From: Solibacteraceae bacterium | GTDB taxonomy: Bacteria; Acidobacteriota; Terriglobia; Bryobacterales; Bryobacteraceae | NCBI GenBank assembly: GCA_026984795.1 | Contig: JALSRK010000045.1 | Coordinates: forward strand, 62,001 to 126,000 | Direction: 5' to 3' | Length of the DNA stretch: 64,000 nucleotides | Shown here: positions 15,255-35,247 of the stretch, piece by piece | How the letters are laid out: each line of letters begins with the position of its first letter | Position numbering within the stretch: the stretch's first letter is position 1 | The notes under the pieces: model-generated | Told to the model about the DNA's origin: nothing | Database searches by the model: none | What the model saw: the letters and a program-made list of their open reading frames with translations, nothing else | Translations under genes and position numbers: made by a program

Positions 15255-15282
15255 GACGCTTGGGTGTTTCGGATCGAAAAAC

Positions 15283-15313
15283 TTGCTCTCGGGTGGCGAA
15301 ACTCTACTAGAAT
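15283..15313 (+). promoter_or_regulatory. Candidate promoter of the module A / nos operon
   Basis: TTGCTC (15283-15288) and TAGAAT (15308-15313) are separated by 19 bases in the only AT-rich patch of the intergenic region. A shifted reading TACTAG gives 16 bases. The predicted leader is about 70 bases. No FNR-type TTGAT-N4-ATCAA palindrome was found near it. Confidence 0.35.
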
Positions 15314-15387
15314 TATGGGAACAGTCTTCCCCGGCTGACCGGTGGGTGGACAGATCGCCCGAGGTCGGCGGTGGAGGGGAAAGGCCG

Positions 15388-17286: not shown

Positions 17287-17764
17287 CGAAGACAAGGTCA
17301 AGCGCCGGGACGTGATTTCAAAGCTGGGCACCGGCGCGGTGGGCGCGGCCTTCGGGTTACCGGTCTTGATGTCGGTGCGGTCGCTGGTGCCGAATGCCTT
17401 GTACGAGAGTCCACGGCGGTTCAAGGCCGGCCGGCCGGAAGAGTTCCCCGATGGCCCTACTTTCGTACCGGAGCAGCGGGTCTTCATCTTCCGCGAGGGC
17501 AAGACCTTTTATTGCATCAGCGCCACCTGCACGCATCTCGGCTGCACGGTGCAACTGGTGCGGCTCGGACGCACGGCGGCCGACCAGACGATCGAGTTCC
17601 ACTGCCCGTGCCACGGGAGCAAGTTCCGGGGCGACGGCACCAATTACGCCGGTCCGGCGCCGCGTCCTCTCGATTACTTCAAGCTCGAGCTGGCCCCCGA
17701 CGACGGGCAACTGGTAGTGGACATGTCCCAGACGGCGGACAAGGGCTGGAGATTCACGGTCTAG
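17273..17764 (+). CDS. Rieske [2Fe-2S] protein of a cytochrome b complex (module A)
   Basis: Membrane-anchored Rieske subunit, 163 residues. A Tat-type N-terminus (KRRDVISKLGTGAVG) supplies the anchor. Cluster box 1 CTHLGC is at 86-91 and box 2 CPCHGS at 111-116, giving the two Cys and two His ligands; [10 protein letters not shown] is the Pro-loop that covers the cluster. It overlaps the flavoprotein gene and is followed ten bases later by cytochrome b. Its role is to accept one electron from quinol at the outer face and pass it to cytochrome c. Confidence 0.93.
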   Translation: MSKGDEDKVKRRDVISKLGTGAVGAAFGLPVLMSVRSLVPNALYESPRRFKAGRPEEFPDGPTFVPEQRVFIFREGKTFYCISATCTHLGCTVQLVRLGRTAADQTIEFHCPCHGSKFRGDGTNYAGPAPRPLDYFKLELAPDDGQLVVDMSQTADKGWRFTV

Positions 17765-17774
17765 AGGAGCGACG

Positions 17775-19124: not shown

Positions 19125-19133
19125 GAGGAAGGT

Positions 19134-20324
19134 GTGTTTTCTCGAGACAGAACTCTAGTCTGGCTGGCGGGATTCTTGGGTGTGGTCGTCTGTGCCTTCG
19201 CGGTGTGGCAGGAGATGAATCCCGGTTACCGCCGCTACCAGCGGGAGTTTCGCCGCCTGATCGAGGAACGTTTCGGACCGGAACGGGCCGCCCTCACGCC
19301 GGCCGGAGTACAGCAGATCTGGATCCGTTCGGCGAACCGCGTGGACCGTTGCACGAGTTGCCACCTGGGCGTGACTTGGGAAGGGCTCGAGAACGCCGAT
19401 CTGCCTTACCGCACCCATTCCAAGAAGCCGCTGGAGCACCATCCGATCGAGCGGTTCGGCTGCACGTACTGCCATGGCGGGCAGGGCTACGCCACCAAGC
19501 TTCCCGATGCCCACGGGTGGGTCAAGGATTGGGAAGAGCCCCTGCTCGATACGACGCTGGCCAAGGACTACCGAGTGAGGGAGAAATGGGCCTTCGTCGA
19601 GATGAACTGCAACGTGTGCCATCGCTTCGAGCGGGAGATCGATGGCGCCGGCATTGTCAATCTCGGCAAGAAGTTGATCCGCGAGAAGGGCTGCCGCGCC
19701 TGCCACATCATCAACGGCCGCGGCGGAACGATCGGGCCGGACTTGACCTGGGAAGGGGACAAGAACCCGGAGCAGTACGACTACACTCGGATCACGACTT
19801 TACCTACGCTGCTGGCCTGGCAGATCGGCCACCTGCAGAGCCCGAAGAGTTTTTCGCCCGACACCGTCATGCCCGACTTCGGCTTCAAGAGCCACGAGGC
19901 GATGGCGATCGCCCTGGTGTTAATGAGCTGGCGCAAGGTGGACATCCCAGTTGACCTGTTGCCGGGCGTGGTCCGTAAGGACGTGCCGACTCCCGAGGAA
20001 CTGGAGCGGGAGCGGACCATGCGCGAGGGCGAAGGAAAATTCTTCGTCGAAAAGACCTGCTTCATCTGCCACGACGTTTCCAGTCTAGGTATCGTCTCGG
20101 CGACGAAGATCGGACCGAACCTGGCGCTGGCGGTGGAAGACGCGCCGCGGCGGTTCGGCCGTACGCTGGACAGCTTCCTGATGAATCCGACAGGGACGAT
20201 GCAGGTCGTGCTGTCCAAGCAGATTCAGCTCACTGACGAGGAGAAGCGGGAGGCCATCAGGCTGCTGAAACTGGCCTACCGCAAGTACAAAGAACAGCAG
20301 TCGGCCGCGGAGAACAAGCCGTGA
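19134..20324 (+). CDS. Membrane-anchored pentaheme cytochrome c (module A)
   Basis: Predicted periplasmic electron carrier of the complex, 396 residues. One N-terminal membrane helix (about residues 8-25) is followed by five CxxCH sites: CTSCH, CTYCH, CNVCH, CRACH and CFICH. The GTG start is set by AGGAGG five bases upstream, which overlaps the cytochrome b stop. Its N-terminal region (a membrane helix, a QLW/QIW segment, then DRCTSCHLG and GCTYCHGGQG) is homologous to that of the octaheme protein at 27139-29157. Next to nosZ, it is the natural candidate to donate electrons to NosZ. Confidence 0.88.
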   Translation: MFSRDRTLVWLAGFLGVVVCAFAVWQEMNPGYRRYQREFRRLIEERFGPERAALTPAGVQQIWIRSANRVDRCTSCHLGVTWEGLENADLPYRTHSKKPLEHHPIERFGCTYCHGGQGYATKLPDAHGWVKDWEEPLLDTTLAKDYRVREKWAFVEMNCNVCHRFEREIDGAGIVNLGKKLIREKGCRACHIINGRGGTIGPDLTWEGDKNPEQYDYTRITTLPTLLAWQIGHLQSPKSFSPDTVMPDFGFKSHEAMAIALVLMSWRKVDIPVDLLPGVVRKDVPTPEELERERTMREGEGKFFVEKTCFICHDVSSLGIVSATKIGPNLALAVEDAPRRFGRTLDSFLMNPTGTMQVVLSKQIQLTDEEKREAIRLLKLAYRKYKEQQSAAENKP

Positions 20325-20357
20325 GACCGGCTGGCCAGGATGAGAAAGGAGACGCAG

Positions 20358-22217
20358 ATGAGCATGCAAACGCGGACCCGCCACTCCCGCTGGGTGTGGC
20401 TTGGCATTGTCACGGGCCTGTTGGCCCTCGGTTACCTCGCCTGCCAGGGAGAAGAGGGCGGCCGCCGCGCGGCTACAGGGAGCGCTGCTGAGGCTGCGGT
20501 GGCCAGCTACGTTCCCCCGGGGGATCTGGACGAATATTATCTGTTCTACTCGGGAGGGCATTCCGGCAACGTATACGTCGCCGGCATCCCCTCCATGCGT
20601 CATATCGCGACGATTCCGGTTTTCACCCCATACCCGGGAACGGGTTATGGCTTCGACGACGAAACCAAGAAGATGCTCGGGGACTTCACTTGGGGCGACA
20701 TCCACCACCCGTCGCTGTCGAAGACCAACGGCGTCTACGACGGCCGCTGGCTCTTCGTCAACGACAACGCGAACGCACGGCTGGCGCGGATCGACCTGCG
20801 CGACTTCAAAACGAAGCAGATCTTCGGCCCGGTACCGAACCTTTCCGGAAACCACGGCAGCGCCTTCGTGACCGCGAACACGGAGATGATCTTGATCGCT
20901 TCGCGCTTTGGCATCCCCATCCCGGTAGGCACGTGGGCCTCGATCGAGGATTACGCGACGAAGTACAAGGGGCTCGTCGGCGCCGTCAAGGTGGATCCGC
21001 AGACCGGCGAGATGTCGATGGGCTTTGAGATCGTGACGCCGCCGTTCGACTGGGATCTCGGCTCTTCCGGCCGCGGACCGTCAGCGGACTGGGCGCTGTG
21101 GACCTGTTACAACTCTGAGCGCGCCACTGGAGTCCTGGAAAAGACGGCCAGCGCCAATGACCGTGACTACGCCATCGCGGTGAACTGGAAGGCGGCGCAG
21201 AAGGCCGTCGATGACGGCAAGGGCGCGATGATCGGCGGCGTGCGGGTGATCGACCCGGCCAAAGTGCCCGGTATCGCCTACCTGATCCCGGTGGCGAAGA
21301 GCCCGCATGGCGTCGATTTCAGCCCGGACGGCACGTTCTTCGTCACCAGCGGCAAGCTGGAAGCCATCACTACTGTCTTCAGCTTCGACAAGATGCTGGC
21401 GGCGATCCAGAATCAGGATTTCGTGGGTGATGAAGACGGCATTCCGGTGCTGCGGTACGAAGCAGTAATGGAGCGCGAGGTGCAGGTCGGCCTCGGCCCG
21501 CTGCACACCCAGTTCGACGACCGAGGCTACGCCTACACCAGCCTGTTCATCGACAGCGCCATCGCCAAGTGGGACCCCAAGACGGGCGAGGTGCTCGACA
21601 CGATCCCGGTGGCTTACAACATCGGCCACCTGCTGGTTCCCGGCGGCGACTCGATGAAGCCTTGGGGAAAGTACGTCATCGCCCTGAACAAGCTCTCCCA
21701 CGGGCGGCACTTGAACGTCGGGCCCAGCCAGCCGGAATCCAGCCAGTTGATCGACATCACCGGCGACAAAATGAGGCTGCTCTACGACGCCTTCACCGAG
21801 CCGGAGCCGCACTACGCCCAGGCCATCCCGCGGGATTTGTTGAAGCCGATCGAAGTGTATCCGCTGGAGCAGAACAAACACCCGGGAGCCATCAAGAGCG
21901 TGGAGGAGGCTTCGGTGACTCGATCCGGCAACCGCGTCGAGGTCAAGATGGCCGTGGTTCGCTCGACCATGTACCCGACGAAGATCGAGGTGCGGCGAGG
22001 CGACACGGTGACCGTCCACATTACCAACATCGAGCAGACCACCGACGAGCTTCATGGTTTCGGGCTCGCCGGGTATAACATCAATATCGTCGTCGATCCG
22101 GGCGAGACCAAGACCGTGACGTTCAAAGCGACCAAGCCGGGCGTATACGCTTACTACTGCACAAACTTCTGCTCTGCGCTGCACCAGGAGATGCAGGGCT
22201 ATCTTCTGGTCCGGTAG
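20358..22217 (+). CDS. nosZ: Nitrous-oxide reductase, Sec-type (clade II-like)
   Basis: Periplasmic multicopper enzyme reducing N2O to N2, 619 residues. The beta-propeller carries the histidines expected for the CuZ site (DIHHPS, SGNHGSAF, KSPHGVDFS, GPLHTQF, LSHGRH, EPHYAQ). The C-terminal cupredoxin domain carries CuA: Cys601, Cys605, His609 and Met612 in CTNFCSALHQEM, plus a histidine in DELHGFG. The signal peptide has no twin-arginine motif and ends LACQ, unlike clade I enzymes. ATG 20358 is chosen because AAAGGAG lies six bases upstream; ATG 20340 would place that site inside the gene. Confidence 0.95.
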   Translation: MSMQTRTRHSRWVWLGIVTGLLALGYLACQGEEGGRRAATGSAAEAAVASYVPPGDLDEYYLFYSGGHSGNVYVAGIPSMRHIATIPVFTPYPGTGYGFDDETKKMLGDFTWGDIHHPSLSKTNGVYDGRWLFVNDNANARLARIDLRDFKTKQIFGPVPNLSGNHGSAFVTANTEMILIASRFGIPIPVGTWASIEDYATKYKGLVGAVKVDPQTGEMSMGFEIVTPPFDWDLGSSGRGPSADWALWTCYNSERATGVLEKTASANDRDYAIAVNWKAAQKAVDDGKGAMIGGVRVIDPAKVPGIAYLIPVAKSPHGVDFSPDGTFFVTSGKLEAITTVFSFDKMLAAIQNQDFVGDEDGIPVLRYEAVMEREVQVGLGPLHTQFDDRGYAYTSLFIDSAIAKWDPKTGEVLDTIPVAYNIGHLLVPGGDSMKPWGKYVIALNKLSHGRHLNVGPSQPESSQLIDITGDKMRLLYDAFTEPEPHYAQAIPRDLLKPIEVYPLEQNKHPGAIKSVEEASVTRSGNRVEVKMAVVRSTMYPTKIEVRRGDTVTVHITNIEQTTDELHGFGLAGYNINIVVDPGETKTVTFKATKPGVYAYYCTNFCSALHQEMQGYLLVR

Positions 22218-22242
22218 CGGCCTGCCGCTTCGGGACCGACGC

Positions 22243-22272
22243 GGCCCGGCCTCCACCGGTGGGGGCCGGGCC
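22243..22272 (+). other. Strong intercistronic hairpin between nosZ and the downstream nos genes
   Basis: Arms at 22243-22256 and 22259-22272 are complementary over about 13 bp with one G-T pair; the apex is CCGG. No T-run follows, so it is not a standard terminator. A stable stem directly after nosZ could protect its 3' end and set a nosZ-rich ratio over the accessory genes. Confidence 0.5.
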
Positions 22273-22366
22273 CGCTGGGACAGGCTGGACTGCGCCGGGA
22301 CGGGGCGCGAGACTGGAAGAGGCGCTGCTGTTGCGGCGCGCCTCCCAATAGCGAAGGATCGGAACG

Positions 22367-23008
22367 ATGAACGACAAACTCGTACGTTACCAGGCGATCC
22401 TGGCAAGACCGGTCGGCCTGGCTGGGCGCATTTTGCTGCTGATCTCTGTACTGCTCATCCCCCTCGCTTTTCAGTTCCCCCTCTGGAAGATGGCCTTCCA
22501 GTCCAACCAATACCCGGACCCTCTTCGGCTCGAGATCTACATCAACCACCTCGAAGGACAGAAAACCGCGTCGCGGGACGATCTTCGGGAGATCAATGCG
22601 CTGAATCACTACATCGGCATGAGGCCCCTGATGGAGAGCGACTTCGCCGAGTTCCTGTGGATGCCGTTCGTGCTCGGTTTCTTCGCCCTCTTCATTCTGC
22701 GGGCGGTCGTGTTCGGGACTTTGCGGGACCTGATCGATGTCGTGGTGCTCTACTCGTATTTCGGGCTCTTCTCGGCCTGGAATTTCTACAGTCGTCTCTA
22801 TGACTACGGCCACAACCTGAACCCCGATGCGCCGATCAAGGTGAAGCCGTTCACGCCACCTTTCTTCGGGCGGGTCCAGATCGCGAACTTCCACGTGGAG
22901 AGCTTTCCGGCGGGCGGCAGCGTGGTCCTGGCGGTGGTCGGAGCGTTGCTGCTGGCAGCCTTGGTGATCTCGGTGCGCCAGGCGTCGCGCACCACGACTG
23001 CGGCCTAG
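22367..23008 (+). CDS. NosB-like membrane protein of the nos cluster
   Basis: Predicted integral membrane protein, 213 residues, with about four hydrophobic segments (near 18-40, 95-118, 122-145 and 185-206) and a conserved-looking extracytoplasmic stretch containing ALNHYIGMRPL. It lies between nosZ and nosD, where atypical (clade II) nos clusters carry a four-helix protein called NosB. The assignment rests on topology and position, not on recognised catalytic residues. A role in NosZ maturation or quinol-linked electron supply has been suggested for such proteins but is not evident here. Confidence 0.55.
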   Translation: MNDKLVRYQAILARPVGLAGRILLLISVLLIPLAFQFPLWKMAFQSNQYPDPLRLEIYINHLEGQKTASRDDLREINALNHYIGMRPLMESDFAEFLWMPFVLGFFALFILRAVVFGTLRDLIDVVVLYSYFGLFSAWNFYSRLYDYGHNLNPDAPIKVKPFTPPFFGRVQIANFHVESFPAGGSVVLAVVGALLLAALVISVRQASRTTTAA

Positions 23009-23032
23009 AACGGACCGGGGCGGGGACGAGCC

Positions 23033-24397
23033 GTGCGGGGATGGAGAAGTCCGGCGATCGGGTTGGTTTTGCTGGCGGCGGCCGGCTCGCCAGGAGCCAC
23101 CCTGCATGTCGGGATTCCGGGCGGCTATTCGACAGTCGGGGAGGCCCTGGCCGCGGCGGCGCCCGCTGATATAGTGCTGGTGCACGCCGGTGAGTACCGC
23201 GAGCGTCTTGTCGTTGACCAGCCGGTGCACCTAGTAGGGCAAGGCAGGCCCCACATTTGGGGCGACGGTTCGGGGGACGTCGTCCTGATCCTCGCGGACG
23301 ACGTCGAGCTCCGGGGCTTTCGCATCAGCGGTTCCGGCCTACGCATGATGCATAGCGATGCGGGGGTCAAGATCGCGGGCAAGAGAGTGCGGGTGGCCGA
23401 GAACGAGCTGTTCGACAACCTGTTCGGAATCTACCTGAACGGCTCGGCCGAGGCCGTGATCGAACACAACCGGATCCGCGGCCGTGCCGATATCGAGATC
23501 GGGCGGCGCGGAGCCGGAATCCACTTCTATGACGCACACCATAACCTCGTGCGGTTCAACCGGATCTGGGAGGTTCGCGACGGCGTCTACTTCGACCACT
23601 CGGATTTCAACCGTGTCGAAGACAATGAGTTCAGCCGCCTGCGTTATGGCGTGCACTATATGTATTGCGGGCCCAACAGCTTCTCCCGGAACATCTTTCG
23701 CGACAGCATGGCGGGCGCTGTGGTGATGTACACCGAGCGGGTGGTGTTCCGCGACAACCAGATGATCAACAACCGGGCCGGCGTCAACGCCTGCGGCCTG
23801 CTGTTCAAGGACTGTCTGGACTCGGTGGCCGAGCGGAACGTCATCGTCAACAACGTCCGGGGAATCTTCCTGGACAACTCCCACCGGAACCGTTTCTTCC
23901 ACAACCTGGTGGCGCAGAACGACGTGGCTGTCGTACTACACGCCAATTCCTTGAAGAACAGCTTCGGTGGCAACGACTTTATCGACAACCTGGCGGTGCT
24001 CCACACGGTGGGACGGGCCGACGCGGACTGGACTCCGGGCGGCTTAGGCAACTATTACTCGGATTACACCGGCTACGACCTGGACGGCGACGGCGTGGGC
24101 GATGTCGAATACCGGCTGCAGGACGCTTTCGAGTACCTGGTGGGAAACCGGCCGTTGCTCGGCCTGTTTCTGAATAGCGCCGCCGCCGACGCGCTCTCCT
24201 TCGCCGAGAAGAACTTCCCTCTGATTCACGGCAGCGACGAGCGGGACACGGCTCCCCGGATGCGGCCCGTGAGCGGCGTAAGAATGGTGGCTGCCGCCGG
24301 GCAGGCGGGAGCCGCTGGAAACCGGTCATTGCCCGTGATGGGATGGCTGCTTGCGCTGAGCGGCAGCGGCCTGCTGGTGTGGAGGTTGCGGGCATGA
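23033..24397 (+). CDS. nosD: Nitrous oxide reductase maturation protein NosD
   Basis: Periplasmic parallel beta-helix protein needed to build the CuZ site, 454 residues. A signal peptide (about 1-22) precedes a run of right-handed beta-helix repeats with N/H/D turns (for example FDNLFGIYLNGS, NNVRGIFLDNSHRN). The C-terminus has a hydrophobic segment (WLLALSGSGLLVW) then RLRA, suggesting a membrane anchor. GTG start. Overlap with nosF is ATGA, so it is coupled to the ABC transporter that NosD works with. Confidence 0.9.
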   Translation: MRGWRSPAIGLVLLAAAGSPGATLHVGIPGGYSTVGEALAAAAPADIVLVHAGEYRERLVVDQPVHLVGQGRPHIWGDGSGDVVLILADDVELRGFRISGSGLRMMHSDAGVKIAGKRVRVAENELFDNLFGIYLNGSAEAVIEHNRIRGRADIEIGRRGAGIHFYDAHHNLVRFNRIWEVRDGVYFDHSDFNRVEDNEFSRLRYGVHYMYCGPNSFSRNIFRDSMAGAVVMYTERVVFRDNQMINNRAGVNACGLLFKDCLDSVAERNVIVNNVRGIFLDNSHRNRFFHNLVAQNDVAVVLHANSLKNSFGGNDFIDNLAVLHTVGRADADWTPGGLGNYYSDYTGYDLDGDGVGDVEYRLQDAFEYLVGNRPLLGLFLNSAAADALSFAEKNFPLIHGSDERDTAPRMRPVSGVRMVAAAGQAGAAGNRSLPVMGWLLALSGSGLLVWRLRA

Positions 24398-25314
24398 GTC
24401 CGGCGGTGAAGGTCACGGCGCTGAGGAAATCCTACGGGGGCGTCGTCGCCCTGGATGGAATCTCGTTCACCGTGGAGCCGGGCCAGGTGGTGGCTCTGTT
24501 GGGGCCGAACGGTAGCGGCAAGACGACCGCCTTGCGGGCGGTGGCCGGTCTGTTGCGCCTGGACGAGGGCTCCGTGGAGATCTTCGGTGCGGATGCGGAG
24601 CGCGATCCCCGTGAAGCCCGGCGGCAGTTCGCCTACGTTCCGCAGCAGCCGGTGTTTCCCCCGAACGTCACCGTGGGTGAGATGCTCGACTTTCACCGCC
24701 GGTTGCGCGGACTGCAGCAGGAAGCCGTGGACCGGGCGGTGGAACAGGCGGACCTCGAGGCGGCCCGGGACCGCCTGGTCGGCGAGCTTTCCGGCGGCAT
24801 GCGGCACCGCCTGTCGCTGGCCATCGCCAACCTGGCCCCGGTGAAGCTGATGATCCTCGACGAGCCGACGGCCAGCCTGGATCCGCAGGCCGTGCTGCGC
24901 TTGCGCCGGCAGGCTCTCCGGTGGCGGGACGCCGGGAGGGCGATCCTGTTTTCCACCCACGTCCTCAGCGATGCCGAAGAGCTCGCCGGCCGGGTGGTCG
25001 TATTGATGGAAGGCCGGGTGGTCCGGGACGAGGATGTGACCCGGCTGCGCGCTGACTTGCGGCAATCGGCTCTGTTGCGGGTGGACGTCGGCGTGCCGAC
25101 GCCGGAACATGAGCAGGCGGCGTTGGCCGCCGGCGCGACCAGGGTTCGGGTGAATTCGACGGCGCTGGTGATCACGGCGCCGGTGGAGCGCCGCTATGAG
25201 ATCCTGGACCGGCTCAGCCGGGTCAGCGAGATTCGCCATTTCGAAACCGAGGAGCCCTCGATCGAGCGGATATACATGGATTACACCCGAGGTGCGGCTA
25301 ATGAGGAAGCTTGA
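24394..25314 (+). CDS. nosF: ABC transporter ATP-binding protein NosF
   Basis: ATPase of the NosDFY maturation system, 306 residues. Walker A is GPNGSGKTT, the signature is LSGGMRHRLSLAIANL, Walker B is LMILDEPTASLDP, and the switch histidine is in STHVLSD. ATG 24394 overlaps the nosD stop and gives the normal N-terminus; an earlier in-frame start lies inside nosD. The stop lies 14 bases into nosL. Confidence 0.93.
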   Translation: MSPAVKVTALRKSYGGVVALDGISFTVEPGQVVALLGPNGSGKTTALRAVAGLLRLDEGSVEIFGADAERDPREARRQFAYVPQQPVFPPNVTVGEMLDFHRRLRGLQQEAVDRAVEQADLEAARDRLVGELSGGMRHRLSLAIANLAPVKLMILDEPTASLDPQAVLRLRRQALRWRDAGRAILFSTHVLSDAEELAGRVVVLMEGRVVRDEDVTRLRADLRQSALLRVDVGVPTPEHEQAALAAGATRVRVNSTALVITAPVERRYEILDRLSRVSEIRHFETEEPSIERIYMDYTRGAANEEA

Positions 25315-25744
25315 GGCGGTCGGCGCCGGCATTGCGCTGGCGGGTCTGCTGGCTTGCCAAGACGGCCGGCCGGAGCCCGTCGAGATCCCGCTGAACGAGG
25401 CGAGTTGCAGTCACTGTCGGATGGCCGTCTCCGAACGGGAGTTTGCTGCCGAAGTGGTGGCTCCAGACGGGAGAGTGAACTATTTCGACGACATCGGCTG
25501 TCTGGCGGCCTGGCTTCGCGAACATCAGCCGCCCGCCGAAGCCGGCATCTACGTGGTGGATTTCGAGACGGGTAAGTGGCTGAATGCCGAATCGGCTTAC
25601 TACGTGAAATCCAGCCGGATCCCTACACCGATGGCTTCCGGGGTGGTGGCGTTCAGTGATGCCGAGCGCGCGGTGGAAGCTGCGAAGCGTTATGAAGGGC
25701 GGCAGCTCACGTGGCAGGAGGTTCTGAGCGAGGCCGGGCGATGA
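25301..25744 (+). CDS. nosL: Copper chaperone lipoprotein NosL
   Basis: Outer- or inner-membrane-anchored Cu(I) chaperone for NosZ, 147 residues. The signal ends in a lipobox (GLLAC, Cys about 20). The copper motif CSHCRM and the later TPMASGVVAF, with its methionine, match NosL. ATG 25301 lies within the last codons of nosF; a longer frame upstream has no signal peptide. The stop overlaps nosY by ATGA. Confidence 0.9.
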   Translation: MRKLEAVGAGIALAGLLACQDGRPEPVEIPLNEASCSHCRMAVSEREFAAEVVAPDGRVNYFDDIGCLAAWLREHQPPAEAGIYVVDFETGKWLNAESAYYVKSSRIPTPMASGVVAFSDAERAVEAAKRYEGRQLTWQEVLSEAGR

Positions 25745-26571
25745 ATGTGGGGATGGTGGCGGTAATCGCCCGGCACGAACTCCGGATCGTCCTTCGCAAC
25801 CGCTGGATTGCGCTCTACGCGGCCCTTTTTGCCGGACTAACGTTCGCGGTTAGCTATTTCGGGCTGGTGGTGATCGAGTTCACCGGGTTCCAGGAATTCC
25901 ACCGGACGGCGGTGAGCCTGCTGAACCTGGTCCTTTATCTGGTGCCTCTGGCGGCTATGTTGATGGCCGTGCAGAGTTTCCGGCCCGAGGGTGGAGCCAC
26001 CGAGCAGCTCTTCGCCGAGCCGCTCACCGCGGGCGAGATCGTGCTGGGAAAGTTCGCCGGCCTCTCCGTGGCCCACACGCTGGCCATCGTCGGCGGGTTC
26101 AGCTTCACCGGAGTGCTGATTGCGTTGAAGGTGGGTACCCGGGGGCTCTCCAGTTACTTGGTTCTGATTGCATTCGCCAGTCTGGTGGGGCTGGCCTTTC
26201 TGGCGATCGCGTCGATGCTGGCGATCGCCACGCGCCGGAGCGCGAGGACGTACGCCGTCGTGCTGGTCGTATGGTTCCTCCTGGTGCTGATCTTCGACCT
26301 GCTGATCATTGGGCTGAGCCTGGTGTTGCCCTACGCTTGGGCGAACCGGGCGGCGCTGGCGGGCGCGTTCCTGGACCCGGTGGACGCCACGCGGGTGGCG
26401 ACATTGCTGGCCGTGGCCGGCAAGGAGGTATTCGGATCAGCGGGAGCGCAGCTCGTGCGCGCGCTCGGCGGGACGGGCCCAGCGATCGTCCTGCTGGCGG
26501 CAGCGCTGGCCCTCTGGGTCGTCTGGCCGGTGGCCGTGGCGATCCGCCTGCTCAGCCGCCAGGACGTTTGA
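25741..26571 (+). CDS. nosY: ABC transporter permease NosY
   Basis: ABC-2 type permease paired with NosF, 276 residues with about six membrane segments. The early ARHELRIVLRNRW cytoplasmic stretch and PEGGATEQLFAEPLTAGEIVLGKF are typical of NosY. It closes the + strand operon; its stop faces the stop of the monoheme cytochrome gene 49 bases away on the other strand. No terminator is visible in that gap. Confidence 0.9.
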   Translation: MNVGMVAVIARHELRIVLRNRWIALYAALFAGLTFAVSYFGLVVIEFTGFQEFHRTAVSLLNLVLYLVPLAAMLMAVQSFRPEGGATEQLFAEPLTAGEIVLGKFAGLSVAHTLAIVGGFSFTGVLIALKVGTRGLSSYLVLIAFASLVGLAFLAIASMLAIATRRSARTYAVVLVVWFLLVLIFDLLIIGLSLVLPYAWANRAALAGAFLDPVDATRVATLLAVAGKEVFGSAGAQLVRALGGTGPAIVLLAAALALWVVWPVAVAIRLLSRQDV

Positions 26572-26620
26572 GAGGAACCGATGCCACAAACTCGTCGGCG
26601 GCGCCTGCGCTGGCTGTGCT

Positions 26621-27142
26621 TCACTGCCCAGTTTCCGCCGCTTCTTCTCCGGAAGTTTCGGCCGCTGCTTGCGCCTTGCGCTGCAGCAGCCGGATGTAGG
26701 AGACGACGTAGCGGATCTGCCGGTCGCCCAGGGTGCGTCCCCAGGGCGGCATCAGCGGGGACCGGCCGCGCTTCCGGCCGCCGAGGCGGATCACCTCGGT
26801 CAATTCACGGTCCGACACGCGGGTGCGCATGTAATCGTCCACCAGCGACCGGGGCTTCGGATCCAGGTTGAACGCGTTGAAGCCGTCGCCTTCTCCGAGT
26901 TCTCCATGGCAGACGAGGCAGTAACGCTGATAGATCTCGAAGCCGTTGGCCTCCTCGAATTGCATCAGCGGAGCGGACTCTTGCGTCGCTTCGGGCGCGG
27001 TTTCAGCCGGCGTCTCCGCAGCGCTTGCGCCTCCGCCGCCGGGGCCGCCGCACGCGAGCATCAGAGCCGCTCCGCCGGCCAGGAGCGCGCGGACAACGGG
27101 ATTCGATACAGCGCGGTGCGAAGGAGCGGGTCGGTGCGTCAT
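26621..27142 (-). CDS. Monoheme cytochrome c lipoprotein (module B)
   Basis: Exported single-heme cytochrome c, 173 residues. The signal ends in a lipobox-like MLAC, then an Ala/Glu/Pro-rich linker and a class I cytochrome domain with CLVCH and a likely axial methionine in SPLMPPWG. The reading frame is open upstream, but ATG 27142 overlaps the octaheme gene stop (ATGA) and gives a clean signal peptide. As the last gene of module B it probably shuttles electrons from the octaheme protein. Confidence 0.85.
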   Translation of the reverse strand: MTHRPAPSHRAVSNPVVRALLAGGAALMLACGGPGGGGASAAETPAETAPEATQESAPLMQFEEANGFEIYQRYCLVCHGELGEGDGFNAFNLDPKPRSLVDDYMRTRVSDRELTEVIRLGGRKRGRSPLMPPWGRTLGDRQIRYVVSYIRLLQRKAQAAAETSGEEAAETGQ

Positions 27143-29157
27143 CGGGAGCCTCCTTGGGAGCCGCCGGCCGGCGGCAGACCGTAGAGGAACGCTGTGATGG
27201 CCCTGGCTTCTTCGGGCGTCAAGCCCTGGTTCGGGTCGATTGTTTCGGGAATGAAACGTTGTGGGTTCAACAGCCACTCGTAGATGTAGCCGGAGTAGAG
27301 GCGGTTTCGGACTCCATCGAGCGGAGGACCCACGTAGCCGCCCTGCTGATTCACCTGATGGCAGGCCTGGCAGCCGTACTTCTCATAAAAAAGCCGCCGT
27401 CCGGTCTCCACCATCGAGCGGTCCGGCGGCGACAGGAAGATCTCCCTGGGGATCGAATCGTCCACCAGGACGAGTTGGAAATACGAAACCGCTGTCTCGA
27501 TCTCCTCCCGGGTCAAGCCGAGGATCGGCATGCGTTCGGTCATGATCGGGCGGAGCGTATAAGGCAGCTCGAAGTACCTGGCGATCCACTCCGGCTTCGC
27601 CATGCTGCCTTCCCGCGTCAGGTCCGGAGCGATCTCCCCGCCCACGCCGCGGATGGAGTGGCAGCTCAGGCACTGATACTTCTCGAGAATTCGATTGAAA
27701 GGGCCTGAGGGTGAGTAGGACGGCGGATCCGGACTGGGCGGCAGGTACTTGGGCGGGATGTTGTCGCCCGTCAAGCTGAGCAAGGCGGCGGTGACCTGCC
27801 GGGCCTCTTCGTCGGAGAAGTGGTAGTCCGGCATCCGCAAGTCCGGGGAGAAGATCCGCGGGATCTTCATCTTTGTGTACAGCCACTGGACCAGGGATCG
27901 CTCGATCTTGGTATTGCCGAAGTCGAGCTGGTCGATGTCTTTGACGCCGATCTCCGAGAGGTCGGCGCCGAACTCGCCACGGACTTCGTGGCCGGTGAGC
28001 GCGTGGCAATAGGCGCAGCCGTACTGGCGGAAGAGTTCCTCTCCTTCGGCCATCACCGCCCTGTCGGGCTCCGGGATCAGCTCGAGGATCTTGTCGTCTT
28101 CGTCCGGGTCGGCGTCGTAATCGACGAGTTCGGAGACCATGTAGGCGGCGATCGACTTCTTTTCCCGCTCCGTCAGCCCGTACTGGGGCATGATGGAGTC
28201 CGGATAGTGCTCGCGGGGGTTCTCCAGCCAGGAGACGAGCCACGCCGGCTGGACCTTCGAGGCCACTTTCCCGAGGTCGGGGCCGAGCTTGCCGCCGCGC
28301 CCCTCCTGGGCATGGCAGCTCACGCAACGGAGTTCGCGGTAGCGGGTCTCTCCGAACTCGATCTCCTCGTCAGAGGCGTTCAGAAGGGCCTGCTCCCACT
28401 GCCGGCCGGCGGCCGCCTCTTCGGGGCTCTTCTTCTTGAACGTTAGAAGATAGCTCGTCAAGACGGCGGCTTCGGACTCGCTGAGATGGAAGTCCGGCAT
28501 CTTGGATTCCGGTAGGTAGTCGAAGGGGCTCTTCAGCCACCGGTAGAGCCACTCGGGCCGGACCTTGTCTCCGATGTCGCTGAGGTCGGGTCCGGGTTTG
28601 CGTTCCAGGGAGAAGCCGGGAATCTTGTGACAGGCGGCGCAATTGGCCTCCTGGATGAGCCGGCGGCCCGAGGCGACCGTGTAGGTTTCCGGCGGCTTGC
28701 GCTCGCGGTGGCAGGAGCCGCAGGAGCCGCTGACGTAGAAGCTGGGCAGCATGGGCGATTCCCAGTGCTTGGTGGCGCCGTGAGCGGCCTCGGTGGTGGT
28801 CGCCCGTCCCTGGCCGCGGTGGCACACGGTGCATCCGATCTCCTCCAGCCGGTGCGGAGTGGTCGGATGAGCGCGGAAGGGCTCCGGCGCGTCCCGCAGC
28901 TCAGGATTGTCGATCCCGAGGTGGCACGTGGTGCACCGGTCCACCACTCCGAGGTCCGGGTTCCACAGTTGCCGCAGTCCAATCTCGACTGGACGCACAT
29001 CCTGGCCCATCTTGTAGCGTTCCGCGGCGAGCTGGTTGTACTGTTTCTGGATCGACTTCCACTCGGGAAATACGTGGCGTACGGGAGAAATGGCGAGAGC
29101 CAAGAACATCAATACGCTGGCTATGGCGAATGCAAGCCACAATCGGAGAGGCGCCAT
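27139..29157 (-). CDS. Membrane-anchored octaheme cytochrome c (module B)
   Basis: Predicted periplasmic electron carrier of the second Rieske/cytochrome b complex, 672 residues. After one N-terminal helix come eight CxxCH sites: CTTCH, CTVCH, CGSCH, CAACH, CVSCH, CAYCH, CLSCH and CQACH. Between hemes there are repeated class I-like segments (GPDLSDIGDKV, GPDLGKVASKV, APDLTREGS), as if built by domain duplication. Start: ATG 29157 has AAAGGAG five bases upstream; a GTG at 29172 would lie across that site. The N-terminus is homologous to the pentaheme protein of module A. Confidence 0.88.
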   Translation of the reverse strand: MAPLRLWLAFAIASVLMFLALAISPVRHVFPEWKSIQKQYNQLAAERYKMGQDVRPVEIGLRQLWNPDLGVVDRCTTCHLGIDNPELRDAPEPFRAHPTTPHRLEEIGCTVCHRGQGRATTTEAAHGATKHWESPMLPSFYVSGSCGSCHRERKPPETYTVASGRRLIQEANCAACHKIPGFSLERKPGPDLSDIGDKVRPEWLYRWLKSPFDYLPESKMPDFHLSESEAAVLTSYLLTFKKKSPEEAAAGRQWEQALLNASDEEIEFGETRYRELRCVSCHAQEGRGGKLGPDLGKVASKVQPAWLVSWLENPREHYPDSIMPQYGLTEREKKSIAAYMVSELVDYDADPDEDDKILELIPEPDRAVMAEGEELFRQYGCAYCHALTGHEVRGEFGADLSEIGVKDIDQLDFGNTKIERSLVQWLYTKMKIPRIFSPDLRMPDYHFSDEEARQVTAALLSLTGDNIPPKYLPPSPDPPSYSPSGPFNRILEKYQCLSCHSIRGVGGEIAPDLTREGSMAKPEWIARYFELPYTLRPIMTERMPILGLTREEIETAVSYFQLVLVDDSIPREIFLSPPDRSMVETGRRLFYEKYGCQACHQVNQQGGYVGPPLDGVRNRLYSGYIYEWLLNPQRFIPETIDPNQGLTPEEARAITAFLYGLPPAGGSQGGSR

Positions 29158-29175
29158 AGTGTCTCCTTTCACTCG

Positions 29176-29868
29176 TTATTGCCAAGGCCAGACCCAGCTC
29201 CAACCGGGTCCGCGGAAGTAGACGCCGATCAAAGTGAGCACCACCGTGCAAGCGACGAACCAGATCATGATCCACGACGGTAGGCTCAGCTTGCAGACGC
29301 GCCCCCACCATCCGGTCTCGCTCGGATAGAGCAGGCAGGCGATCATCACCAGGCTCAGCAGAAAAGAGGTGATCACCACCGGCCAGACGCCGAAGATCGC
29401 CAGAATCACCAGCGATCCCAGGACCACCGAGCCGAACGTCAGCAGAGCCCGCCGGTCCCGGCGTTCCCACAGCCTCGGCCGCCGGACGTTCACGTCGAAG
29501 TAGGGGATCACGATCAACGCGATCACCACCAGTGCGGGCACGAGCACGCCGGCGACAATCGGCGGGAAATAATGCAGAAGCTCCTGGAGGCCGAGAAAGT
29601 ACCATGGCGCCTTGGCCGGATTCGGCGTCTTCAACGGGTTCGCCATCTGCTCCAGCGGCGCATCGACGAGCAGGGAATAGAAGGCGAGGAAGGCGACCAG
29701 CAGCTCGAAGGCGATCGCCTCCCGGAGCACGAGATGAGGGACGCTCATGACCATCTCCTCGGGCTCGACGTCCACCTTCAACGACACGTCGCGGGAAACC
29801 AGCGCCACCCTCTTCGGCACCGCGACGGGATCGTCGGACTTGACCAGTTCGAAATCTCGTTGAGGCAT
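29176..29868 (-). CDS. Cytochrome b complex subunit IV-like protein (module B)
   Basis: C-terminal half of a split cytochrome b, 230 residues. A hydrophilic N-terminus of about 45 residues is followed by membrane segments and NPAKAPWYFLGLQELL; the quinol-site motif APWY (residues 87-90) replaces PEWY, as in module A. Several further helices follow, more than the three of classical subunit IV. GGAGG precedes the ATG. It lies 15 bases after the b6 gene. Confidence 0.88.
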   Translation of the reverse strand: MPQRDFELVKSDDPVAVPKRVALVSRDVSLKVDVEPEEMVMSVPHLVLREAIAFELLVAFLAFYSLLVDAPLEQMANPLKTPNPAKAPWYFLGLQELLHYFPPIVAGVLVPALVVIALIVIPYFDVNVRRPRLWERRDRRALLTFGSVVLGSLVILAIFGVWPVVITSFLLSLVMIACLLYPSETGWWGRVCKLSLPSWIMIWFVACTVVLTLIGVYFRGPGWSWVWPWQ

Positions 29869-29883: not shown

Positions 29884-30651
29884 TTAGAGCGGCCGTGCGA
29901 GGCCCCCGTCTTTGCGGACCCGCCAGAAGTGCACGGCCATCAGAACCACGATCCCCAGGGGAAGAACCACGCAGTGGAGAACATAGAACCGGATCAGAGT
30001 GTTCTCACCGATCGTGTTCCCGCCGAGCAGCAGGAAACGAATCTCGTCTCCCACCCAGGGAACGGCGCCCGCCATGTTCGTTCCGACGGTGATCGCCCAG
30101 TAAGCGAGCTGATCCCAGGGCAGCAGGTAGCCGGTGAAGCTCAGGAGCAAGGTCAACACGAGCAGCATGACCCCCACCACCCAGTTGAATTCCCGCGGCG
30201 GCCGGTAGGCGCCGGCGAAGAAGACGCGCAACATGTGTAAGAAGACGGTGATCACCATCAAATGGGCGCTCCACCGGTGCAGGTTCCTCAGAAACACCCC
30301 GGAGCTGACGACGAACTCCAGATCCTTCATGTCCTCGTAGGCCCGCGGCGCGGATGGGTGGTAGTAGAGCATGAGAAGAATGCCGGTGACCGTGAGCACG
30401 ATGAAGAGCGCCAGCGACAAGCCGCCGAGACAGAACGTGACGCGGAACGGCAGCGCCGACTTGCGGACTTTCACCGGGTGGATGTGGAGGAAGACGTTGG
30501 AGTAAATAGTGAGAGCGCGGTCGCGATTGGTTCGGATCCAGCCGTGCCGGAACACCGACCGCCATACGCCCGAGCCGGTGAGGCGCGTCAACAAGCGGCG
30601 GCCGACGCCGGCTTGTGGGGTAGCGTTCCAGTTGGTGCTTAGATCATTCAT
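29884..30651 (-). CDS. Cytochrome b6-type subunit (module B)
   Basis: Diheme four-helix cytochrome b, 255 residues. Heme ligands are His125/His139 ([16 protein letters not shown]) and His226/His241, with b6-type spacing of 14 residues in the second pair. Cys74 in RVTFCLGG aligns with the cysteine that binds the extra heme c in cytochrome b6 (YCLGG in chloroplasts), so a heme cn/ci is likely. ATG 30651 is chosen for AAGGAAG just upstream; ATG 30666 adds five residues and lacks a site. Confidence 0.92.
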
Positions 30652-30705
30652 GACTTCCTTTCCCATGTGGTTTCGTAAGGGCCACTGGAGGCGCCCCGAA
30701 TCATC

Positions 30706-31203
30706 TCAGACCCTCAGAACGTATTCCGGATCTACGACGACGGCCACGTCCACGACCAGCCGCCCGTCGTCTGCCAGAGAGATCAGAAGATGGTCCAACG
30801 GCCGTGGCGCCGGGCCGGCAAGGACTCGGCCGCTGCTGTCGAACCTGCTCCCGTGACACGGGCATTGGATCTGGCCGGCCTGCTCGTTCCACCGTGTGAT
30901 ACAACCCAGATGAGTGCAGATGGCGGAAAGAGCGAAGAAGCCGCGGGGAGTCCGCACGACGTAGACGCGGATGGATGGATGGCTCACCACCGAGGTGATC
31001 GGGTAGTCTTCCGGCACCCCTACTACGTGCTTAGTAGGCGGTTCAAACAGGACATTGGGCTCGAGATACTGCATGAAGACGACGGTGCCGCCGCTGGCAG
31101 TCGCCCCCAAGGCCCCGGCTCCAATGCCCATGAAAAAGCGGCGCCGGGTGATGCCGTGAGGATCGTTGCGGTCGTCGAACTTCGCCAGCACTTCGTTCTT
31201 CAT
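30706..31203 (-). CDS. Rieske [2Fe-2S] protein (module B)
   Basis: 165 residues with a Tat-type anchor ([16 protein letters not shown]), box 1 CTHLGC at 96-101 and box 2 CPCHGS at 114-119, and the Pro-loop GPAPRPLDH. The start overlaps the flavoprotein stop (ATGA), mirroring the order and tight coupling in module A. The spacing between boxes (12 residues) is shorter than in the module A protein (19), so the two are not recent copies. Confidence 0.92.
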
Positions 31204-33092
31204 TGCGTGAGCACTCCTTCCACCTCGAGAAAGCTCTCCATGGTGATGCACCCCACCGGACAGCGCTGTTCGCACAGGCCGCAGCGGATGCACTTGGTTT
31301 CGTCCTTGATCATGACGGCCTGAATTTCCTGGGAAAGAGCCTGCCCCTGTCCGGGGAATCCGAACTCGGCCGCCAGCTCAGCGGCCGTCTCCGGTGAAGC
31401 GGCCATCCGTTCGGCGGAGACGAGCTCGATGCAGTACTCTGGGCAGACGTCCACGCAGCCGCCGCACAAGATGCACTCGCTGCCGGTCTCCTCGGCTCCT
31501 TCGAAGATCGTGTTCACCCAGCAGCGCAGGCAGCGGCTGCCTTCGATGCGGGCGGTGGGTTCGTCGTAGCCGAGCTCCACCTCGGCGATGCCGATGCGGC
31601 GGTCGATGGGCAGGGAAGGGACCGGCTGCCGGGGGTACTGGTCGTAGTTGTCCAGCGGTTGGAACGATCGTCGCGGAAAGACGAAGATCTTGTGCTCCTG
31701 AGGCGGCGGCGCCTGGCCCGTCAAAAGGCGGTGAATCGAGGCGGCGGCTTTGCGCCCGTCGGCCACTGCGGCGATCACGTTGCGCGGTCCGAAGGCGACG
31801 TCGCCTCCGGCGAAGACATCCGGCGCGGTCGTCGCCAGCGTCTCGGGATCGACGGCGATGGTTCCCCGGGGCGTCAGCTCGATTCCCGAATCCTCTCCCA
31901 GAAACGACAGATCGGGCTGCTGTCCGATGGCCAGGATCACCGTGTTGCACTCGACCACCTCTTCACTGCCCGGATAGAAGGTCGGGTTGAACCGGCCTTC
32001 GGAATCGAAGACAGACTTGACGCGCACGAACTCGACGCCGGTGACGGCGCCGTCCTTGCCCAGGATGCGTTTGGGCCCGACCATGTCGCGGATCGTGATG
32101 CCCTCGTGTTCGGCTTCCTCCACCTCCGACTGGAAGGCCGGCATCTGTTCTCGGGGCTCCAGGCAAGCGAGGGTGACCTCCTTGGCCCCGAAGCGCATCG
32201 CCGAGCGGGCGACGTCCATGGCCGTGCGCATCGTGCCGGACGGAGAGTAGTCCTCATCGACGGTCTGGTAGCGCAGCACCGAGCGGGCGACGTCGATGGC
32301 TACGTTGCCGCCGCCGATGACGACCACTTTGTCGCCGAGGTCCACCCGGTAGTTCAGGTTGGCGTTCAGCAGGTAGTCGATGCCGTTGAACACGCCGTCG
32401 AGGTGGACCCCTTCGATGGAGAGTTCGCGGCTCTTGTGAGCTCCGACGGCGATGAAGATAGCCCGGAAGCCTTGCTGCCGCAGATCGTCCAGCGAGAAGT
32501 CGCCGCCGAGGCGCTTGCCGTAACGAAAGGTCACCCCGAGGCTCTCGATGTAGTCGGCTTGGGCGTGAATGATGTACCGCGGCAAGCGATACTCCGGGAT
32601 TCCGAGGTAGAGCATCCCGCCGGGGACGTTCGTGCCTTCAAAGATCACGGCTTTGTGCCCCAGAAGGGCGAGATCGTGGGCCGCCGCCAGTCCGGCCGGG
32701 CCGGCGCCGATGATGGCCACATCGCCCCGCGGGGGATCTTCGGAGCTTCCGCGGCGCACGGTCCGCAACTGGTTCACGGTGATCAGCCGGCCCGGTTTGC
32801 TGTAAACGCCGTAGCGTTCGCACACGAACCGCTTCAGCGCCCGGATCGCCACCGGCTCGTCCAGCGCATCGCGCCGGCACGCCTCCTCGCACGGGGCGGC
32901 GCAGATGTGTCCGCAGATCGATGCCAGCGGATTAGGAGCTGCGGCCAAGGAATACGCCTCTTCGTATCGTCCCAGGGCGATGAGGTGGCAGTAGCCTCCG
33001 GCGTGTGTCCGCACCGGGCAGGCCTGCTGGCAAGGGACGTTACGTCGCAGCCATTCCAAATTGACGCCCCTCATCTCGCCTTGCTCGCCCAT
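31200..33092 (-). CDS. GltD-like FAD/Fe-S oxidoreductase with C-terminal ferredoxin clusters (module B)
   Basis: Paralogue of the module A flavoprotein, 630 residues. The six N-terminal cysteines fall at identical positions (21, 25, 60, 64, 68, 72). The FAD loop is GAGPAG; the nicotinamide loop here is GGGNVAID, the standard GltD form, whereas module A has GGGFVAFD. The C-terminus has [20 protein letters not shown] and [11 protein letters not shown] (first Cys about 601). GGAGAGGAG precedes the ATG. It leads into Rieske, b6, subunit IV and multiheme cytochrome genes, so it is expected to be the cytoplasmic arm of that complex. Confidence 0.85.
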
Positions 33093-33144: not shown

Positions 33145-34530
33145 TCAGAAGTACACCCTCAGCCCCATTCGAAACCGGTCGTCGAAGGGGCGTAGCTCAG
33201 GAGCTTGTTTGCCGCTAACCACTCCGTCTACGGTGAAGACCACATTCGCCCGTATCATCATCGACAACGAAAGGGTTGTGCGGGTAAAACTGGGAGCGAA
33301 ATCAGGCCGGACCCGCTCAAACCGGACCAGCGGCTGAAGCCAAGGCCACGGAGTTACATAATTGGCTTCCACCATCGTGATATCATTCCTGTATATCCGT
33401 CCGTCGATGATACTGTCGTGGTTGCGCTGCCAGCCTCCGAACACGTTCAGATCATAGATCCAGGCATCGAACGTGACACCGGTACGGTAGAAGGTATTAC
33501 CGTTCGGTGAAAAGTCCTCCGTGGGGCCGTCTCCCACGAAAGCTCCAGTGACCCCACGATAATAATACCCATTCAGGGTTAACGAGTTGTCGCGCCAGTT
33601 CTTCGCTTGCACCAGGACATCGGACCCGCCGGAGCCGAACACGCCAAGGCCTCCTATCTTGTAGGAAGCCTGAAAGTAGAAGTCTTTCTCACTATTGACA
33701 TCCAGTCCATTTCCGTGGGTATCCGCCGCTAGCTCAAGTTCCTCAATCAAGTCGGAGAGAGGTGAGTCCTCAAGGGCTTCAACGGCGCCGCCGAAATTCC
33801 CATTGACTACCCCCGCGCTCCACATGAGTCCCCCCTTCTTGCCCGGGCCCTCCTTTCCGCCCCAAATCTCTACGCCCTTTTGGTTGGGCGAGAACCCGAA
33901 GAAGTTTCCGGCTGGGACGGTAGGATATAGGTTCATCAGGTATCCGGTGAAGCGGCTGAGGCGCAGGTGGTTGGAAAAGGGTGCCGCGCGTGGCTCGAAC
34001 TGTCCGATGCGAACGTTGAAATAGTTCGAGGGATGGCTGTACTGGACAAAGAGGCGCCCGATGCCGCCGGGTGAGCCGTTTTCGAAGAGCTCAATGTCGC
34101 TGTAGAAGGAAAAACTCTCACCGAGAGTCCCACCGAAAAGTAGCCCGACTTCACCTATTCCGTCGAACGAGTTCGTGACGGCAGCGCTGGGATTGACCTC
34201 GAAGTTGGCCTCCACGTCGATCCCGAAATAGTTGCCGCCGGGAATACTCGAGGGCCAGGTTCCCTCCGGCCAGACGCGCTTCCAGGACGGTGATCCGATC
34301 GGGACCTGCTTCTCCTTGATGAGTTCCTCGTCGTCGCCCGGCATGCGGTAGCCGCGGTTCTTAAAAGCGCGACCGAAGGCGTTCAACTTCGGAGGTGTAA
34401 CATGGCAGGTCAAGCAACTGGTATGGTACTTGCGGGCGAAAGGAGGAATCGCCGAGGCGGGGACGGCCGTGGCGAGCCAGATAGCAACCGAGCCAAGGCT
34501 TATACCAAACAGGGCAGCTGTGGTGTTCAT
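33145..34530 (-). CDS. Outer-membrane porin with N-terminal heme c (Cyc2-like architecture)
   Basis: Predicted fusion of a monoheme cytochrome c and a beta-barrel, 461 residues. The signal peptide ends near residue 27 (ASA). CLTCH at 39-43 is followed by PPKLNAFGRAFKNRGYRM, then about 390 residues rich in alternating aromatic/polar strands and Gly/Asn turns, ending in Phe (RMGLRVYF), the outer-membrane insertion signal. Known fused cytochrome-porins of this layout (Cyc2) take electrons from extracellular Fe(II); family membership here is by architecture only. GGAGG precedes the ATG. GC content is visibly lower than that of neighbours. Confidence 0.7.
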   Translation of the reverse strand: MNTTAALFGISLGSVAIWLATAVPASAIPPFARKYHTSCLTCHVTPPKLNAFGRAFKNRGYRMPGDDEELIKEKQVPIGSPSWKRVWPEGTWPSSIPGGNYFGIDVEANFEVNPSAAVTNSFDGIGEVGLLFGGTLGESFSFYSDIELFENGSPGGIGRLFVQYSHPSNYFNVRIGQFEPRAAPFSNHLRLSRFTGYLMNLYPTVPAGNFFGFSPNQKGVEIWGGKEGPGKKGGLMWSAGVVNGNFGGAVEALEDSPLSDLIEELELAADTHGNGLDVNSEKDFYFQASYKIGGLGVFGSGGSDVLVQAKNWRDNSLTLNGYYYRGVTGAFVGDGPTEDFSPNGNTFYRTGVTFDAWIYDLNVFGGWQRNHDSIIDGRIYRNDITMVEANYVTPWPWLQPLVRFERVRPDFAPSFTRTTLSLSMMIRANVVFTVDGVVSGKQAPELRPFDDRFRMGLRVYF

Positions 34531-34599: not shown

Positions 34600-35247
34600 T
34601 TAGCGTCGGAGGTTGAAGTTCACTTGGACGTTTCCTGATGCAGGCACGGTGACCGTCTGGGTAGCCGGTTTTCGCTTCTCGTGCCAAACCTTCAACGTAT
34701 AGGTGCCAGGGGGGACGGCGGTGATTGTAAAGGAGCCGTCCCGTGTCGTCGTACTGAAGAAGGGATTCGTAAGGACGACGACATATGCCTCCATCTCTGG
34801 GTGTACCTTGCAAAGGAGAACGACTTCGCCGGGACGCTTGAACGTGTAATTCTTCGACTGGCCTGAAGGCCAGGTGCCAAGATTGAACTTGTCAGCCACC
34901 TTCGACGGAGTGAAGACATTATGTTGAACGGAATCGCTGTTGAGGAAACGGACGGTGGTTCCAACTACAATAGGCGTGACATGAGGAACGAATTTCATCT
35001 TGACCTGATCGATGACGACAGGTTTGGACGGTGGTGGGAAGTGTTTGTTCAGGCTGTCGATGTAGACTACGGCTTCGGGCTTTATCGGTCGACCTTTGTA
35101 TTGCACCTTGCCTGTGATTGTTCCGGCGAGGGCGGACGTCGGGAGGAGGGAGAGTGCCAGGCCGACAGTAAGCAGGACCAGCGGTAGTTGCCGAGGAGGC
35201 CGTGGTAGCTGACGAGCGCGTGGTGGGGACACGATACTTGTACTCAT
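34600..35247 (-). CDS. Exported blue copper protein (plastocyanin-like) with C-terminal carboxypeptidase-regulatory-like domain
   Basis: 215 residues with a long basic N-terminus, a hydrophobic signal core and cleavage near ALAG (40-42). A cupredoxin fold carries type 1 copper ligands: His109 (VQHNVF), Cys146, His149 and Met152 (LLCKVHPEM). The tail (GSFTITAVPPGTYTLKVWH) is a small carboxypeptidase-regulatory-like beta domain. It heads the module B operon, 69 bases before the cytochrome-porin, and is likely a periplasmic one-electron carrier. GGAG lies about nine bases before the ATG. GC is low like the next gene. Confidence 0.8.
   Translation of the reverse strand: MSTSIVSPPRARQLPRPPRQLPLVLLTVGLALSLLPTSALAGTITGKVQYKGRPIKPEAVVYIDSLNKHFPPPSKPVVIDQVKMKFVPHVTPIVVGTTVRFLNSDSVQHNVFTPSKVADKFNLGTWPSGQSKNYTFKRPGEVVLLCKVHPEMEAYVVVLTNPFFSTTTRDGSFTITAVPPGTYTLKVWHEKRKPATQTVTVPASGNVQVNFNLRR

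Follow-up and report, generated by a model that had tools for sequence, protein, structure and literature searches.

Acidobacteriota are usually taken for heterotrophs. In the 64,000-nucleotide stretch of a Solibacteraceae genome that we analysed as a whole (below, the window), a minus-strand open reading frame at 33145..34530 raises the question of whether this organism carries an outer-membrane cytochrome of the Cyc2 type and, if so, with which partners and in which direction it would pass electrons. An initial annotation had proposed such a protein, a cytochrome-porin fusion with the layout of the Fe(II) oxidase Cyc2, encoded in an apparent operon that also specifies a blue copper protein and a bc-type complex. 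The reading frame was recovered, as was the single heme motif that had been noted behind its signal peptide.

The encoded protein of 461 amino acids comprises a likely signal peptide (residues 1-27, called by eye and by the AXA rule), a mature N-terminus reading IPPFARKY, one CXXCH motif at residues 39-43, a heme domain to about residue 65 and a predicted outer-membrane barrel that extends to the terminal Phe461 (C-terminal residues FRMGLRVYF). In the translated frame the CXXCH sits within SAIPPFARKYHTSCLTCHVTPPKLNAFGRAFKNRGY, directly 3' of the signal peptide, and is then followed by PKLNAFGRAFKNRGY. Cyc2 proteins are described as having a signal peptide, one CXXCH, the motif AXPXFAR[Q/K][T/Y], a PXL motif, a minimum length of 365 residues and a porin of 16 strands resembling OprO/OprP (PMC8406198). 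Comparing the window protein with this description, we observed an exact match to AXPXFAR[Q/K][T/Y] upstream of the CXXCH (AIPPFARKY), a PXL about four residues past it (CLTCHVTPPKL), exactly one CXXCH behind the signal peptide as called above, and a length of 461 residues against the minimum of 365. Because the heme motif matches the published consensus of AXPXFAR[Q/K][T/Y] plus PXL, it goes beyond chance, and the Cyc2 layout first proposed for this gene holds for motif, single heme and length alike. Signal peptide, single CXXCH, motifs and size are likewise those given for Cyc2 of Acidithiobacillus and Mariprofundus and Cyt572 of Leptospirillum in PMC8406198, and in both cases a candidate gene for a periplasmic electron acceptor lies nearby. 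By the testable published sequence criteria, the porin is a member of the Cyc2 superfamily. No Pfam, NCBIfam or PDB sequence family matched it, no second copy was found in its own genome (5.2 Mb, 77 contigs; the sole other match spanned 51 residues at E 0.16), and a scan of viral contigs returned no relative.

How close this protein stands to the classical Cyc2 proteins depends on which of its parts is compared. Full-length relatives were found at 61-63% identity, the nearest named ones being two Acidobacteria records with 61% over the whole length, and the proteins of loci L011 and L036/G221 (a genome listed in the window's class) were identical. Among 63 relatives, collected with a motif looser than the strict Cyc2 one, the strict motif was present in 31 and PXL in all 63. 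The classical form FARQTG...PELT..GR.FKLNGYT, or a near variant, occurred in plasmid proteins of Caballeronia, Paraburkholderia and Methylocystis and also within the window's own class, where two genomes (L025/L060 and L026) have it; the relative with the classical motif in L060 has Rieske, cytochrome b and cupredoxin-like neighbours. Where five classical-type relatives show this form, the window protein reads FARKY.TSC.TCH..PPKLN.FGRAFKN, and it carries an extra segment of about 30 residues past the heme domain. Alignment by hhalign of the window group with these five proteins, which represent the classical type in place of the Acidithiobacillus, Mariprofundus and Leptospirillum proteins themselves, gave E 5e-19 for the heme region, whereas the barrel alone reached a probability of 3.6% and showed no detectable sequence homology; the barrel profile of the window group matched that of another Acidobacteriota group at 100%. 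The pairwise match between the porin and a Caballeronia Cyc2-like protein covered 43 heme-domain residues (46 bits). A tree of 62 proteins placed the classical sequences by themselves, with full support, on one side of a long branch; the program warns of long-branch joins. Since the heme region matches the classical profile and the barrel does not, and since the classical set lies across a long branch, the porin is, judged by its sequence, a member of a divergent Acidobacteriota branch of the Cyc2 superfamily. The original proposal of a Cyc2-like protein was thus right in motif and layout, while detectable homology to classical Cyc2 is confined to the heme domain.

The barrel ending in Phe, which the initial annotation had also predicted, was borne out in its terminal residue and is indicated, short of proof, for the fold. 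A C-terminal Phe, Tyr or Trp was present in 59/63 related monoheme proteins compared with 17/185 control ORFs, and the outer-membrane signature (aromatic at -1, hydrophobic at -3 and -5) in 48/63 compared with 5/185, the controls being ORFs of the same loci from a simple gene caller and some of them possibly false genes. Hydrophobic residues occupied positions -1, -3 and -5 in 62, 57 and 57 of the 63 relatives, and positions -2, -4 and -6 in 36, 6 and 17. An AlphaFold2 model of the porin, built from three sequences only, reached a pLDDT of 27.4 and a pTM of 0.23 and was unusable for the strand count and heme position that structure prediction had been expected to provide. Weak matches to Porin_O_P appeared in 5/62 members of the porin family (best E 1.5e-4), the window protein not among them. 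In an amphipathic-strand test the window protein gave p 0.023, in a setting where two positive-control barrels did not stand out from the controls either. Sequence and profile searches of the PDB returned no barrel relative, the sole match, 6qvm, being not significant (E 1.5 and 0.44). We consider an outer-membrane barrel likely, chiefly on the C-terminal signature, which is the strongest line of support.

The porin is the second gene of a tightly packed minus-strand operon. Its first gene encodes a cupredoxin with a C-terminal carboxypeptidase-regulatory-like domain (34600..35247); after the porin come a GltD/PRK12771-like FAD and NAD(P)-binding iron-sulfur oxidoreductase (31200..33092; 427.6 bits, PRK12771 cut-off 516), a Rieske [2Fe-2S] protein (30706..31203, its ATG overlapping the flavoprotein stop), the N-terminal part of a cytochrome b (29884..30666; 299.9 bits to NCBIfam ExtP, over the cut-off of 290), a cytochrome b C-terminal or subunit IV-like protein (29176..29868; 60 bits to ExtQ, below the cut-off of 150), a c-type cytochrome with eight CXXCH motifs and a hydrophobic N-terminal segment (27139..29172) and, as the last gene, a monoheme c-type cytochrome (26621..27142). 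Intergenic gaps in this order are 69, 52, -4, 39, 15, 3 and -4 bases, counted from ORF coordinates with internal ATGs chosen from the ORF for the Rieske and last cytochrome genes. The common strand and the tight gaps support the operon suspected at the outset, which the porin would share with the blue copper protein and the bc-type complex. From its sequence, the GltD/PRK12771-like oxidoreductase would be a subunit-like partner of the bc complex. The cupredoxin matched the Copper-bind domain over cut-off, and its residues H109, C146, H149 and M152, which we take to be candidate type-1 copper ligands, were kept in 4/4 aligned sequences. Its structural model (pLDDT 82) found NirK, the copper nitrite reductase, as the best Foldseek match, followed by purple cupredoxin, amicyanins and plastocyanins, and supports the predicted type-1 copper protein fold with good confidence. 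A search of the genome with the cupredoxin returned, up to E 0.001, only the cupredoxin itself.

A clade II nos cluster occupies positions 15241-26571 on the plus strand of the window, with a NosZ matching the Sec-dependent model at E 1.5e-259, a NosD over cut-off, and NosF-, NosL- and NosY-like ORFs recognised by eye and position. The nos genes are preceded by a module of their own, with flavoprotein, Rieske, cytochrome b and cytochrome c genes, that is paralogous to the porin-linked one, and the two operons converge near 26600.

In order to see the porin in its wider context, we searched 396 sampled genomes of the phylum with a profile of 14 relatives, which matched in 105 of them at E up to 1e-10, many of the matches covering the heme domain only. 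Neighbourhoods were compared for 58 loci besides the window: 20 from earlier searches (13 of 19 from one search, five from another, plus L011 and L012) and 38 of the 42 new loci that the profile search yielded down to E 3.4e-45. Left out were G018, two of G039, G015:C3, G022:C245 and G035; G520, G701, G493 and the second copy in G586. A cupredoxin gene lay within 1.5 kb of the porin in 52/58 loci. Among the six without one, the contig ended within 0.6 kb past the porin in L108, L125 and L131, and the gene was absent in L057-L059, where a small monoheme cytochrome gene adjoins the porin in L057 and L059. We observed a same-strand cytochrome b in 32/58 loci, a flavoprotein in 28/58 (weak, at 24%, in L100) and both in 27/58, counts that are lower bounds because several contigs end within the region. 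The linkage of porin, cupredoxin and bc module recurs in many genomes of the phylum and is therefore no quirk of this window. Among 44 chosen genomes the flavoprotein was present in 34, in one to three copies each, and 28 of its 30 strongest matches adjoined a porin; since all 44 had been picked for holding the porin, and 28 of them (the window's included) for the linkage itself, this survey speaks to low copy number and is not an independent test. Beside the porins closest to that of the window (L011, L012, L013/L043 and L093) there is no flavoprotein-cytochrome b pair, and the window's own porin clade is mostly without the bc module. In L055 (G022:C98) and L107 (G649:C253) the porin matches contain in-frame stop codons, yet a cupredoxin gene still comes after them, in L107 along with the bc module.

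Two characterised systems resemble parts of this operon. The rus operon of Acidithiobacillus (cyc2-cyc1-cup-cox-rus; PMC10654088) likewise combines a Cyc2-type protein with a copper protein; the window operon, in contrast, is without cyc1 and cox and has the flavoprotein, Rieske, cytochrome b and octaheme cytochrome instead, and its cupredoxin shows CxxHxxM spacing and is joined to the carboxypeptidase-regulatory-like domain. The extHIJKLMNOPQS genes of Geobacter (PMC5877670) likewise place a porin gene with a Rieske protein, an ExtP-type cytochrome b and c-type cytochromes, and their described phenotype concerns selenite and tellurite; the ext gene list as given there names no cupredoxin or GltD-like flavoprotein. 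We rejected an assignment of the porin as ExtI, since ExtI is described in the same source as without a cofactor motif while the window porin carries CXXCH.

What route might electrons take through this set of proteins? We would put an even chance on the porin serving as an outer-membrane monoheme electron gate to the cupredoxin and a quinone-linked bc-type complex, most likely fed by Fe(II) and working inward. A single heme c in the short N-terminal domain would sit on the periplasmic side of the outer-membrane beta-barrel, where a small soluble donor, most likely Fe(II), would reach it from inside the pore. The porin heme would then pass electrons to the periplasmic cupredoxin encoded with it, in the way that Cyc2 passes them to rusticyanin (PMC10654088), and the cupredoxin would hand them to the c-type cytochromes of the bc-type complex, with the eight-heme cytochrome and the bc complex linked to quinone. 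By way of the GltD-like flavoprotein, part of the flow would be pushed uphill to quinone and probably also to NAD(P)H. Other electrons may end at a haem-copper oxidase (one gene was found in the genome) or at the N2O reductase that this strain encodes nearby. The barrel and the order and direction of transfer we infer, and Fe(II) as the porin substrate is assumed by analogy; this sequence analysis gave no iron-specific evidence for the porin. PMC8406198 calls the function of the divergent Cyc2 Cluster 3 'most uncertain' and states that many Cyc2 homologs come from organisms not known as iron oxidisers and await verification. Autotrophy of the RuBisCO type was considered and set aside: the one RuBisCO-family match, at L112:6983-8590 (G000:C16), adjoins, by eye, a DUF1537-like sugar-acid kinase gene, so that it is probably a form IV RuBisCO-like gene of a catabolic cluster.

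The same conduit could also run in reverse, from quinol through the bc complex, the octaheme cytochrome, the cupredoxin and the porin heme to an acceptor outside the cell or one entering the pore, be it Fe(III), an oxyanion of a metalloid or a different small oxidant, a possibility that we take seriously and consider doubtful. The ExtP score of the cytochrome b is consistent with such outward flow, as is the Geobacter selenite/tellurite operon with its own porin, Rieske protein and cytochromes c, and in the paralogous flavoprotein/Rieske/cytochrome b module that precedes nosZ electrons presumably run toward N2O. However, the ExtI porin of that Geobacter system has no cofactor-binding motif (PMC5877670), no curated Ext porin model matched the window porin in NCBIfam, a library that may have none for ExtI, and the three Cyc2 representatives tested biochemically oxidise Fe(II) (PMC8406198), which argues for inward flow.

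At several loci the porin-cupredoxin pair keeps other company. In G021 (L043:8226-13933), whose porin is 61-62% identical to that of the window, NrfD- and DsrO-like genes lie upstream and, with a gene for a small CXXCH protein also next to the pair, take the place of the bc module, which suggests that the pair teams up with different quinone-reactive machines. In L011:9330-15054 the porin stands between two cupredoxin genes, followed downstream by a cupredoxin/CoxII-like gene, a rubrerythrin-like gene, a NapH-like gene (for an iron-sulfur membrane protein) and another CoxII-like gene, and by eye a similar set occurs in L044 and L045. Downstream of porin and cupredoxin in L012:12166-19279 we found the genes for a 14-CXXCH protein of 1063 residues and for a molybdopterin oxidoreductase. 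In L048:10708-12861 a large gene with Cache, HAMP, kinase and receiver domains follows the pair, and by eye a similar sensor kinase-like gene follows it in L047 and L049; these three belong to a family of four genomes, the contig of the fourth (L046) ending there. With NrfD/DsrO-like, CoxII/NapH-like or sensor kinase-like neighbours in place of the bc module, the constant unit is porin plus cupredoxin, and the membrane partner varies. These sensor-like genes, of which the one in L048 was checked for its Cache and kinase domains, together with sigma-54-type two-component genes upstream of the pair (checked in L045 and L093; by eye in L011, L043, L103, L105 and L106), would fit a non-respiratory role: a porin for redox sensing or for a specific substrate, with the heme as its gate or sensor and the cupredoxin delivering, or reporting on, copper or redox state. 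We regard that role as improbable, since the 27/58 loci with same-strand flavoprotein and cytochrome b hold genes that a sensor would not need. Very improbable indeed is a service of the porin to the window's N2O reductase cluster, through copper or N2O supply or as an electron path: the nosZ cluster (clade II, with a bc module to itself) does lie about 7-18 kb from the porin, but the two operons are convergent and not shared, and the 58 other loci, covered mostly to within about 9 kb of the porin, held no full nos gene, their yield being two NosF ABC-ATPase matches (28-32% identity) and a short C-terminal copper domain of NosZ in six.

The position of the conserved motif leads to a further prediction, on the ligands of the heme. 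An AXA-type signal-peptidase site stood directly before XPxFAR in 62/63 proteins, so that mature chains would begin [I/V/L/F/M]-P; the first Cys of the heme motif was mature residue 12 in 63/63, with a collecting pattern that allowed six spacings. Apart from the CXXCH His and the start Met, no His or Met column reached 60% in a 62-row alignment. In cytochrome f, whose mature protein begins YPIFAQ..., the heme takes its sixth ligand from the N-terminal amine. By analogy, the mature N-terminal amine may be the sixth heme ligand here and in Cyc2 generally; Lys or Tyr may also act as a ligand. Ligation by the N-terminus would explain why XPxFAR starts exactly at the signal-peptidase site, and would mean that the signal peptide ends with the first A of the published AXPXFAR. 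This inference is weakened by another AXA-like site, located five residues further on, that fits 57/63 proteins, though not the window protein (Pro at -3). The likeness to cytochrome f draws on its N-terminus and on logic, and a PDB search with the 40-residue heme segment returned no cytochrome f match. The word 'axial' is absent from the main text of PMC8406198, and a literature search by title found nothing on Cyc2 heme ligation. If true, the N-terminal ligand would speak to heme coordination in Cyc2.

Cyc2 homologs of Acidobacteriota are already known: four of six cyc2-bearing MAGs in PMC10367259 belong to the phylum, and a network in PMC10654088 links Leptospirillum Cyc572 with Acidobacteria. 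Our literature search, with most subscription journals outside its reach, found no published description of this operon, and PMC10732223, PMC3578206 and PMC7029218, as far as their accessible parts go, hold nothing directly on it. In its fullest version, which is rather unlikely to hold in its entirety, our reading posits that an undescribed electron-uptake operon is widespread in Acidobacteriota, that its distinct Cyc2 branch, cupredoxin and flavoprotein-bc complex could use Fe(II) or some other donor outside the cell to make quinol and NAD(P)H, and that the N-terminal amine ligates the heme throughout the superfamily. Cyc2 serves as a marker gene for neutrophilic iron oxidation, and the operon gives a concrete pathway to test; its recurrence shows which Cyc2 homologs sit among respiratory genes. 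Should the operon serve in electron uptake, such uptake from outside the cell could be a common trait of the phylum, in which 105/396 genomes carry at least a match to the heme domain.
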